Positions 52,786 through 56,777 of a stretch of 64,000 nt of DNA are shown piece after piece. The stretch's first letter is position 1. Each line of letters starts with the position of its first letter. Under the pieces are notes generated by a model that saw only the letters and a list, made by a program, of their open reading frames with translations, was not told where the DNA came from and made no database searches. A program made the translations under genes and the position numbers. Origin of the DNA: Microcoleus sp. FACHB-61 (GTDB lineage: Bacteria; Cyanobacteriota; Cyanobacteriia; Cyanobacteriales; Microcoleaceae); assembly GCA_014695295.1 (NCBI GenBank), contig JACJNY010000061.1, forward strand, positions 124,001 through 188,000. Reading direction: 5' to 3'.

Positions 52786-52998
52786 TTAGTGAGCAATGTA
52801 GGTAGGCAGAAAGTGGAGAATGTCGCGCAGAACGCTATAGCCAGCAGCATCCCAGAGCAAATAAGCTAAGAAACCGATCATCGCTAAGCGACCGTTCCAA
52901 AGTTCTGCTTGCGGGTTGAAGCCAAACAGAAAGGCATTCCGATCTTTGCCGTTGTAAGCATTAGCCGTAGGAGGCAGGTTAGTAGGACGAGTTTCCAT
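52786..52998 (-). CDS. hli: High-light-inducible protein (single-helix chlorophyll-binding)
   Basis: The 70-residue protein has one membrane helix containing the HLIP motif AELWNGRLAMIGFLAYL (about 31-47), in which Glu and Asn/Arg bind chlorophyll and pair the helices. The tail DILHFLPTYIAH is typical. HLIPs dissipate excess excitation and bind to photosystem assembly intermediates. AAGGAATG precedes the ATG at 52998. An HLR1-like element overlaps this site. psaK follows downstream. Confidence 0.93.
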   Translation of the reverse strand: METRPTNLPPTANAYNGKDRNAFLFGFNPQAELWNGRLAMIGFLAYLLWDAAGYSVLRDILHFLPTYIAH

Positions 52999-53019: not shown

Positions 53020-53378
53020 GTTCGCTTCTCATGGTAGCGACCTAATTTCTGCTTGGCTATCTGTCTCTAGGCCCAAGATACACACAAGTCTAAAGGAGGA
53101 TTTTGAAACAAAAAATAAAGTGTTAAGTTTTGTTGCGCGAGATTCTTCAGCGATCGCCTGTATCTGTAGATACTAAATACAACTGCAAGTTGAGATGGCT
53201 GCTGTGAAAGGCTCCATCGCCCCGTAGCGACAAACAACGGCGCTGGTGACTCGACAATACTGAATCCGCGCTCTGCTAGAGGCAAGAAAATTTAGTAAAT
53301 TTCAGCTTAAAACCCGAACACGATCGTCCTTGAGTTAATTAAAATAGGAGATAAACAGATCGATCGGGAGAAACAGTT
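53020..53378. other. Divergent region hli / hflX
   Basis: It contains the promoters of both genes. The hflX ribosome-binding site GGGAG lies at 53366-53370. A minus-strand frame at 53067-53285 has no domain. No RNA or repeat was seen. Confidence 0.45.
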
Positions 53379-55172
53379 ATCGAAACCATCTACGGCAATC
53401 TTCAAGGTTTAAAGTCCAGCCAGCTCAAGCAACTCGAAAAGCTGTACCACCAGCGACTACCGGGCGATCGCATCACCACAGCAGAATTCGCCCAGCGCGT
53501 CGCCGCCATCAGCACGGAAATAGACAAACCAATCTGCACCTACATCAACCGCCGCGGACAAGTAATTCGCGTCGGCGTCGGTACACCCCGCCAAACGCAG
53601 ATTGCGCCATTAGAACTGCCCCGCTACGGGGGAGGTCGCCTCAGCGGTATTCGCTGCATCGCCACCCACCTGAAGCCAGAAACCCCAAGCGAAGCAGCAC
53701 TCACAGCAATGGCAATTCAGCGCCTGGACGCCCTAGTGTGGCTGACACTGACCGGCGGAGGATTTCAGCGCCGCGGCGGCGGTGCGACTGGTTACATTCA
53801 AGAAGCTTATCTCGCTCACCTGATACCCCAGGGAGACCAGCCAAATTTTGAGTTCTCTGTTTTGAGCGCTCAGTTAGAACCAGATTCAACTGATGAAATA
53901 GAAGAGCCTTCAATTCAAAAGTCACTAATCAAAACTCAACACTTTCCCTGGAAAATATCAGAACCGCTGAATTTGGACGAACTCGCCGACCAAGACTTTC
54001 TGGATTTGGTGGAAGGACTCGAAGCAGAGTTTGAAGCAGAGTTTGTCGCTAAGCAGGTCGATGCAGACCAAGACAAAGTGCTGTTGGTAGGTGTAATGAC
54101 TCAGCACATGACTCAGTTGGAGTTTGAGGACGGGCTCGCAGAAATCACGCGGCTGGTTGAAAGCGCCGGGGGTCAGGTACTGCAAACAGTGCGCCAAAAA
54201 CGATCTCGCCCCAATCCGCAGACAGTTGTCGGCGAAGGCAAAGTTCAGGAAATTTCCCTCGCCGCTCAGACGGTTAGCGCTAACCTCGTTGTATTCGATC
54301 GCGACCTGTCGCCCGCACAGATACGAAACTTGGAAACTCAGATAGGCATCCGCGTAGTCGATCGAACAGAGGTAATTCTTGACATCTTTGCCCAAAGAGC
54401 TCGATCGAGCGAGGGTAAATTGCAAGTCGAACTCGCTCAGCTAGAGTACGCCCTGCCCCGGCTCAGAGGTCGCGGTCAGGCTATGTCGAGACAGGGTGGC
54501 GGCATCGGTACCAGAGGCCCAGGGGAAACCAAACTAGAAACCGAACGGCGGACGATCGCCAAACGCATTTCTCGATTGCAGCAAGAAGTAAATCAACTGC
54601 TGGCCCACCGCTTCCGGTTGCGGCAGAACCGCCACCATCACGAGGTACCCTCAGTCGCGATCGTCGGCTACACCAACGCCGGTAAATCGACTCTACTCAA
54701 CCTGCTCACGAATTCCGAGGTCTATGCAGCCGACCAGTTATTTGCCACCCTCGACCCCACAACCCGAAAGTTGACCATTCCCGGCGCTGTCACCGGGGAA
54801 CCCCTGTCGATCGTCCTCACAGATACAGTGGGCTTTATTCGCGAACTGCCTCCCCCTTTGATCGACGCTTTTCGAGCTACCCTCGAAGAAGTCACAGACG
54901 CCGATGCTTTGCTGCACCTTGTCGATCTCTCCCATCCCGCGTGGCAGAGCCAAATTCGATCGGTCATGAATATTTTGGCAGATATGCCCGTCACTCCCGG
55001 GCCAGCAGTTGTAGTTTTTAACAAAATCGATGCCGTAGATGGAGATACTCTCGCCCTCGCCCGAGAAGAGTTTCCTCAAGCCGTATTTATTTCGGCGGCC
55101 AAAGGTCTGGGGATGGAAACTCTCCGCCAGCGACTAGCTCAACTCATTCAATACGCCCTCTACCCTCGGTAA
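53379..55172 (+). CDS. hflX: Ribosome-associated GTPase HflX, apparent ATC start
   Basis: The 597-residue product is HflX, a GTPase that splits or rescues ribosomes under stress. HflX-type sequence is already present before the first ATG at 53709: ETIYGNLQGLKSSQLKQLEK and GDRITTAEFAQRV. In that frame a TAA lies at 53352, and no ATG, GTG or TTG occurs between it and 53709. GGGAG (53366-53370) is eight bases before ATC at 53379. The G domain has GYTNAGKST (about 430), DTVGFI (about 481) and NKID (about 547). The glycine-rich GGGIGTRGPGE is present. Start assignment is an inference; the enzyme call is firm. Confidence 0.92.
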   Translation: METIYGNLQGLKSSQLKQLEKLYHQRLPGDRITTAEFAQRVAAISTEIDKPICTYINRRGQVIRVGVGTPRQTQIAPLELPRYGGGRLSGIRCIATHLKPETPSEAALTAMAIQRLDALVWLTLTGGGFQRRGGGATGYIQEAYLAHLIPQGDQPNFEFSVLSAQLEPDSTDEIEEPSIQKSLIKTQHFPWKISEPLNLDELADQDFLDLVEGLEAEFEAEFVAKQVDADQDKVLLVGVMTQHMTQLEFEDGLAEITRLVESAGGQVLQTVRQKRSRPNPQTVVGEGKVQEISLAAQTVSANLVVFDRDLSPAQIRNLETQIGIRVVDRTEVILDIFAQRARSSEGKLQVELAQLEYALPRLRGRGQAMSRQGGGIGTRGPGETKLETERRTIAKRISRLQQEVNQLLAHRFRLRQNRHHHEVPSVAIVGYTNAGKSTLLNLLTNSEVYAADQLFATLDPTTRKLTIPGAVTGEPLSIVLTDTVGFIRELPPPLIDAFRATLEEVTDADALLHLVDLSHPAWQSQIRSVMNILADMPVTPGPAVVVFNKIDAVDGDTLALAREEFPQAVFISAAKGLGMETLRQRLAQLIQYALYPR

Positions 55173-56346: not shown

Positions 56347-56513
56347 AAATCTCTCCGTTTTTTGAAGCGTGGGTGTTTTTTTATTTTTAGGGTAAAATTT
56401 TATGAAATGGTATAAATAATAACTTTAGAGCTTGCTCGCGGCACCTATATAAAAATTAAAATAAGATTGGTTAAGATTACAATTAAAAAATATTGTTATT
56501 GTTTGAGCGTCCG

Positions 56514-56777
56514 ATGACCCCTAAAGTAGAAATTTACACTTGGAGAACCTGCCCGTTTTGCATTCGTGCCAAAGCACTTCTGAAGCGAAAAGGGGTTAAT
56601 TTTACAGAGTACGCGATCGACGGAGATGAACCAGCACGAGCTCAAATGAGCGATCGAGCCCACGGAGGTCGCACCCTGCCCCAGATATTCATTAACGACC
56701 AACACATAGGCGGCTGCGACGACATCCACCAACTCGATTCTCAAGGCCTGCTCGATCCGCTGCTAGCAGCAAAATGA
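56514..56777 (+). CDS. grxC: Glutaredoxin GrxC
   Basis: The ATG at 56514 (MTPKVEIYTWRTCPFC) gives 87 residues; a TTG at 56493 would add seven. It has the dithiol active site CPFC (residues 14-17), the cis-Pro segment TLPQIF and the glutathione-binding GGCDD. It reduces disulfides and dehydroascorbate with glutathione. It precedes gshB by 67 bp in the same direction, a conserved pairing in cyanobacteria. Confidence 0.94.
   Translation: MTPKVEIYTWRTCPFCIRAKALLKRKGVNFTEYAIDGDEPARAQMSDRAHGGRTLPQIFINDQHIGGCDDIHQLDSQGLLDPLLAAK

Follow-up and report, generated by a model that had tools for sequence, protein, structure and literature searches.

Translation of hflX in the cyanobacterium Microcoleus sp. 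FACHB-61 appears to begin at an AUC codon. For the gene in the stretch of DNA analysed here (64,000 nucleotides; the window), comparison of sequences gives initiation at an AUH codon a probability of roughly 0.93, where AUH denotes ATC, ATA or ATT and the canonical start codons are ATG, GTG and TTG. An earlier note on this DNA had proposed ATC at 53379 as the start, and this proposal was supported by conservation across much of the phylum, the spacing of the Shine-Dalgarno (SD) sequence, a coding boundary that sets in sharply at this codon and covariation in a leader hairpin, all four established by comparison; together with the lack of a canonical codon, they make AUH initiation very likely. 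The best explanation as a whole, which we consider highly probable, is that AUC 53379 serves as a weak start codon of the type discriminated against by IF3; HflX would thereby be kept scarce.

The hflX locus in the window

The features of the locus are as follows.

53352–53354, plus strand: in-frame stop codon TAA upstream of hflX (sequence read directly)
53366–53370, plus strand: SD sequence GGGAG, with the core GGAG at 53367–53370, 8 nt before the start codon
53378, plus strand: U immediately before the start codon, at −1 (T in all 27 genus loci and in 152 of 165 distinct AUH sequences)
53379–53381, plus strand: putative start codon ATC (AUC), invariant in 27 of 27 genus loci; AUH in 165 of 177 distinct sequences phylum-wide
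53379–55172, plus strand: hflX coding sequence, 597 codons plus stop codon (55170–55172), with the TIGR03156 equivalog and Pfam domains
53709–53711, plus strand: first downstream ATG, a start at which would lose 110 conserved codons

From TAA 53352 onwards, the frame reads ACA GAT CGA TCG GGA GAA ACA GTT ATC (53379) GAA ACC ATC TAC GGC. Direct reading of this frame in the window confirmed two statements of the earlier note, namely, that no in-frame ATG, GTG or TTG is present between TAA 53352 and ATG 53709, and that GGGAG (53366–53370) lies eight bases before ATC 53379, the intervening sequence being AAACAGTT. The 597-residue product was identified as HflX by TIGR03156 (E 1.5e-141; 471.4 bits against a cut-off of 216.75; residues 233–589), and the N-terminal, middle and GTPase domains of HflX, PF13167 (GTP-bdg_N), PF16360 (GTP-bdg_M) and PF01926 (MMR_HSR1), all scored above their cut-offs. 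The named records closest to its N-terminus were from Microcoleus, Tychonema and Lyngbya. As for the neighbouring genes, a 70-residue chlorophyll a/b-binding-like protein (PF00504, E 6.2e-5), probably of the high-light-inducible type, is encoded divergently from hflX on the minus strand at 52786–52998, and a glutaredoxin gene (PF00462, E 4.2e-22) lies downstream on the plus strand at 56493–56777.

Conservation of the start codon within the genus

The genus search covered 29 genomes and detected hflX in 27, the two genomes without it being G005 (74% complete) and G018 (95% complete). ATC directly preceded ETIYG, or its variants HTIYG and QTIYG, in all 27 primary hflX loci. Since each of these loci came from a different genome, ATC is not a sequencing error, and the misreading of ATG as ATC at 53379, for which the earlier note had recommended a check, was ruled out. 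The three bases of ATC and the T preceding them never varied across the 27 loci, while many neighbouring bases did. The four positions of the SD core GGAG read G (27 loci), G (27), A (26, with G in one) and G (27). One locus (L024) carried a TTG five codons before ATC.

We then compared the variable sites on both sides of this codon in the same 27 loci. Over the 110 codons after ATC, which contained no stop codon, variable sites numbered 28, 9 and 84 at the first, second and third codon positions, respectively; over the 12 codons ending with ATC the corresponding numbers were 7, 10 and 8, that is, without codon rhythm. Protein-type constraint therefore begins at ATC, neither upstream of it nor at the later ATG, and the 330 bases between ATC and 53709 are coding.

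Spread of AUH start codons across the phylum

A total of 263 loci were collected by genus, family and phylum searches and from named genome contigs, of which 244 passed the filters and 177 were distinct. The 19 loci dropped before counting were second or odd copies (L002, L029, L030, L246, L247 and L248), copies with less than 35% identity (L252, L257, L258, L262 and L263), loci whose match began too late (L230, L239 and L250) and loci without a tblastn match (L251 and L253–L256). Among them, L002, L029, L030, L246 and L248 started with ATG and the five low-identity copies with TTG or ATG; L247, a divergent hflX, showed CCT ATT AGT before TPIHG, a probable AUU start.

The alignment of HflX starts from relatives, by which the earlier note had suggested that its start be checked, gave AUH at the start position in 165 of the 177 distinct sequences (ATC in 103, ATA in 59 and ATT in 3), and 12 sequences carried another codon, in one case ATG. 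No canonical codon was present within 12 codons upstream in 121 of the 165 AUH sequences, nor back to the in-frame stop in 114. In the other 44, a canonical codon occurred among the 12 codons upstream and may be the start; its position was two codons before AUH in 34. All 111 loci from L031 to L141 had ATC (75) or ATA (36), a count in which a gene present in two collections can appear twice. In some loci the in-frame stop lies so close upstream, as in TAA AAT ATC (L135), TGA CCT ATA (L226) and TAA GCG CCT ATA (L160 and L191), that almost no alternative start is left. These phylum-wide sequences share descent, so that the counts are not independent.

Among the named records, AUH without a canonical codon was found in Microcoleus, Tychonema, Kamptonema, Nostoc, Komarekiella, Aliterella, Gloeocapsa and Calothrix, and an ATG two codons before AUH in Brasilonema, Scytonema, Okeania and Hydrocoleum. 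The three Trichodesmium records comprised one with ATG two codons before AUH, one with a canonical codon further upstream and one with none. Some other families begin with ATG TCT ATC, ATG ACC ACT or similar sequences. In family f25, probably picocyanobacteria as judged from their small genomes, the five low-identity copies read TTG AAG CAG or CAA, TTG AAA CAA, or ATG AGG CAG, with the canonical codon two codons before the anchor. In genus g12 (L194, L199 and L207), ATT was located two residues before H-x-IYG, as in ATT AAT HHIYG; these genes possibly have AUU starts that the fixed anchor counted as non-AUH.

Five of the 18 genomes of the other class of the phylum, probably the non-photosynthetic sister class, gave a match. 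In two of these loci AUH directly followed a strong SD sequence, AGGAGG-tttttctc-ATC (L241) and GAGGAGG-ttcggt-ATT (L244), a layout hinting that the AUH trait may be older than the cyanobacteria proper; L242 had ATT with canonical codons upstream, and L243 and L245 had ATG. An N-terminal match was lacking in 242 of the 386 phylum genomes, so these counts cover the small-genome families and the other class poorly. A search of plasmids for AUH hflX beyond the phylum gave no match.

Shine-Dalgarno spacing and the base before the start codon

The 165 distinct AUH loci were divided by an automatic hairpin search into 71 without and 94 with a strong leader hairpin, five of the former (L105, L112, L113, L129 and L177) showing a weaker form of the hairpin by eye. 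Among the 71 loci, 56 had an SD match of at least four bases at an aligned spacing of 4–10 to AUH, compared with 17% of shuffled leaders. The most frequent spacing was 7, observed in 31 of the 71; the scan breaks ties towards a spacing of 7, and the shuffled leaders were scored under the same rule. Outside the genus of the window, the SD sequence was placed for AUH in 33 of 47 such loci. An SD match of at least four bases was lacking in 14 of the 71.

Of the distinct sequences with no canonical codon nearby, numbering 123 (121 with AUH and 2 with another codon), 116 had U at position −1; U was also common there when a canonical codon was near (40 of 54). For comparison, the frequency of U at −1 was 0.49 among 86 unambiguous ATG starts of the 237 predicted genes of genome G082, from the same order, and CCT occupied −3 to −1 in 5 of these 86. 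A paired test on the tree of U at −1 against the lack of a canonical codon, with only six supported pairs, was not significant. In the class lacking a strong hairpin (71 loci), the triplet before AUH ended with T in 60, while its would-be residue varied among P, V, L, S, A, H, T, N and R; a steady third base combined with a changing residue is the reverse of the pattern of coding. In the hairpin leaders this triplet was CCT in 79 of 94, which is non-discriminating and could be a conserved proline codon.

In chloroplasts, U at −1 is cited as favouring binding of the anticodon through extended pairing (PMC4587860). The U at −1 of hflX resembles it, being found in 152 of 165 sequences next to a weak start codon; the chloroplast pairing is described in the relevant part of that source without a link to hflX, and such pairing in hflX is hypothetical.

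A hairpin between the Shine-Dalgarno sequence and the start codon

The foot of the leader hairpin was separated from AUH by 10 nt in 67, 11 nt in 14 and 9 nt in 5 of the 94 loci, i.e. by 10 or 11 nt in 81, and a G-rich stretch was usually located directly 5′ of the hairpin. To analyse covariation, eight of the 94 loci with chance or unclear hairpins were removed, and from the 62 distinct leaders left, 42 were chosen manually and aligned. In this alignment 91.2% of the cells of the stem were paired, and four of the six pairs were changed on both sides. None of 500 shuffles was as good in the percentage paired, the pairs changed, the pair types or the covariation score, and 2 of 500 were as good in the cells changed. 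When the partner was slid, pairing was at most 42.7%. One lineage (L190) had, in almost the same position, a stem of very different sequence, GGATCGG-ACTG-CCGATCC. In four hairpins taken as examples, the folding energy improved on that of shuffled sequences only to a moderate degree (z −1.4 to −2.6), and the case for the hairpin thus rests on covariation and position, not on stability.

A covariance model of the leader (R1) was searched against 40 genomes of the order, and all eight matches at E ≤ 0.1 were located at the ATC or ATA of hflX, five of them at leaders absent from the training alignment; one match (L343) also had GTG two codons before AUH. The remaining 32 genomes, including that of the window, gave no match, and the hairpin is absent in the genus of the window. 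No Rfam 15 family matched the hflX leader up to an E-value of 1 in ten representative loci. In an uncultured cyanobacterium, a HEARO RNA (RF02033, 90.2 bits) was observed a few hundred bases upstream of hflX, on the minus strand (L135:2489-2750).

The sequence GCCU before the start could base-pair with G-rich stretches, for example the SD sequence, and two of four folded leaders paired CCU with AGG or GGG upstream. These predicted folds, of L159 and L053, place the partner upstream of the hairpin, and may represent an alternative, closed conformation of the leader. Through such pairing with the G-rich stretch, the CCU box might alternatively regulate how accessible the ribosome-binding site is.

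Comparison with infC

The 33 infC loci collected (L282–L312, L314 and L315; L313 is hflX2, not infC) included six without a motif match, which were left out. At the start position all 27 parsed loci carried GTG, which followed CCT in 24; ATG stood two codons before this GTG in eight, among them that of the genome of the window. As a parallel AUH gene in cyanobacteria, infC was ruled out by these GTG codons, and the gene of IF3 therefore gives no direct parallel to hflX. The U-ended box, mostly CCU, before both the AUH of hflX and the GUG of infC might hint at joint tuning of two subunit-separating factors.

Work of Butler in 1987 and La Teana in 1993 is said to concern infC and third-base-mismatch starts discriminated against by IF3. 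Two marks of the infC type were found at cyanobacterial hflX, in that AUH replaces the canonical start at a conserved N-terminus and the ribosome-binding site is spaced for AUH. As in E. coli infC, which starts with AUU under IF3 autocontrol, a gene acting on ribosomal subunits has a third-base-mismatch start of the class that IF3 discriminates against (PMC4611024). The two cases differ in the gene, which here is hflX, in the codon, AUC or AUA, and in the hairpin located between the SD sequence and the start in many lineages. Since the gene encodes HflX rather than IF3, classical IF3 autocontrol cannot apply, and only cross-control is possible.

Proposed control of hflX translation

Taken together with what is described for E. 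coli, these features lead us to propose the following mechanism. Translation of hflX would start at AUC 53379 with initiator fMet-tRNA, the mismatch at the third position placing AUC in the codon class that IF3 discriminates against, and the well-placed SD sequence and U at −1 would support this weak start. Other cyanobacterial hflX genes would use mostly AUC or AUA, and rarely AUU, at the same position, and in many lineages the hairpin probably shortens the effective spacing between SD and start. By analogy with E. coli, IF3 would repress the AUH codon. The weak start would then keep HflX scarce, and its synthesis might rise when free IF3 or the stringency of initiation falls, so that a second subunit-separating activity would be made when the first is short.

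Discrimination by IF3 against AUU, AUC and AUA starts, unlike AUG, GUG and UUG, is described in PMC4611024. In a reconstituted system, more IF3 reduced the fraction of full-length product where the third-base pair was weak, as for AUU with anticodon CAU, and increased it where the pair matched (PMC10158994). HflX is described as splitting ribosomes at about one-fifth of the rate of EF-G, RRF and IF3 together (PMC9067457).

The preservation of a weak start suggests that production of HflX is deliberately held back by the translation machinery on which HflX acts. One form of such restraint would be a constant brake, in which the AUH start is real and sets a low, unregulated level of HflX without IF3 feedback, and we give this form an even chance. 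The E. coli hflX transcript is reported to rise with heat, and HflX to be dispensable in normal growth (PMC9067457), which makes a low basal level plausible. In addition, strict sensitivity to IF3 is not needed everywhere, as in some lineages an ATG, GTG or TTG two codons upstream has replaced AUH or accompanies it. A merely weak start would, however, be expected to drift among GUG, UUG and AUH, and codons ending in G are nearly absent at this position (one ATG among 177 sequences); the class that has been kept is the one described as rejected by IF3 (PMC4611024). Both points bear only indirectly on the constant brake. Control by IF3 that is regulated, by analogy with E. coli, falls somewhat short of an even chance. 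As a tentative and rather doubtful proposal, hflX may belong to an old cyanobacterial circuit in which the gene is held on a start that IF3 rejects, with a ribosome-binding site compacted by a hairpin in many lineages, and a back-up ribosome splitter is made when IF3 or stringency is short. If AUH is sensitive to IF3, the stress ribosome splitter HflX would be linked to the fidelity of initiation, with cross-control of two subunit-separating factors.

Relation to known leaders

In genes 38 and 25 of phage T4, a hairpin lies in the spacer between the SD sequence and an AUG start. The hflX leaders are alike in that SD and start are separated by a hairpin and would come nearer when it is folded; they differ from the T4 genes in the AUH start and in the retention of the element at one chromosomal gene across several families. 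The layout of SD, hairpin and AUH offers a natural series in which the possible rescue of weak starts by spacing and by U at −1 can be studied.

Other leader RNAs of hflX genes are described, namely, the uORFC-6-1 motif upstream of hflX in Bacillales, a leader thought to control hflX (PMC8632094), and rli80 of Listeria hflXr, thought to control hflXr (PMC9067457). Compared with these elements, presented there as of the uORF and transcription-attenuation types, respectively, the cyanobacterial element is located at the ribosome-binding site and accompanied by a non-canonical start. As regards an upstream ORF of the uORFC-6-1 type, no in-frame canonical start precedes AUH in 114 sequences; the other frames were inspected by eye in the window. 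No earlier report of AUH starts of hflX was found in the literature searched, which dealt with hflX and cyanobacterial start codons and lay mostly outside subscription journals. Gene callers limited to ATG, GTG and TTG put hflX at risk of truncation or wrong extension across much of the phylum.

Alternative start sites

An alternative to initiation at AUH is a start two codons upstream, in the arrangement NNN CCT AUH, at ATG or GTG in some lineages and at a near-cognate codon, for instance ACG or CTG, in others, with isoleucine as the third residue. At that position, ATG, GTG or TTG was found in 34 of the 165 AUH sequences, and ACG in 59 and CTG in 3 of the 121 with AUH only; the CCT preceding AUH in 79 of the 94 hairpin leaders would fit a conserved proline codon. 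Nevertheless, 57 of the 121 AUH-only sequences have none of ACG, CTG and AUH there, and the same is true of the genus loci, which carry ACA (19), AAA (7) or AGA (1). Moreover, in the genus of the window a spacing of just 2 nt separates the SD sequence from that codon, which is too short for its use; in the other loci without a strong hairpin the spacing is mostly 1–4 nt. The T at the third base in 60 of 71 such loci, with a changing would-be residue, also runs against translation of the intervening triplet. We therefore regard a start two codons upstream as quite improbable.

The full-length frame might also be entered by frameshift or by stop read-through from an upstream open frame, and some lineages do keep the frame open for 20–71 codons upstream. 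This route is very improbable, given the lack of codon rhythm before ATC in the genus (7/10/8), an in-frame stop as little as one codon before AUH (L135 and L226) and an SD sequence spaced for AUH in 56 of the 71 loci without a strong hairpin. Equally improbable is a short form made solely from ATG 53709, the first in-frame ATG, GTG or TTG of the gene, with the preceding 110 codons as a relic, for these codons are free of stops in 27 loci, show a strong third-position bias (28/9/84) and are 75–100% identical in the primary matches of the family search.

An ordinary start was observed in the second hflX paralogue, present in genomes G000, G027 and G028 (L002, at G000:C15:166723-167088 in the genome of the window, L029 and L030), which begins with ATG AGC and provides an internal contrast to the AUC start of the primary gene.
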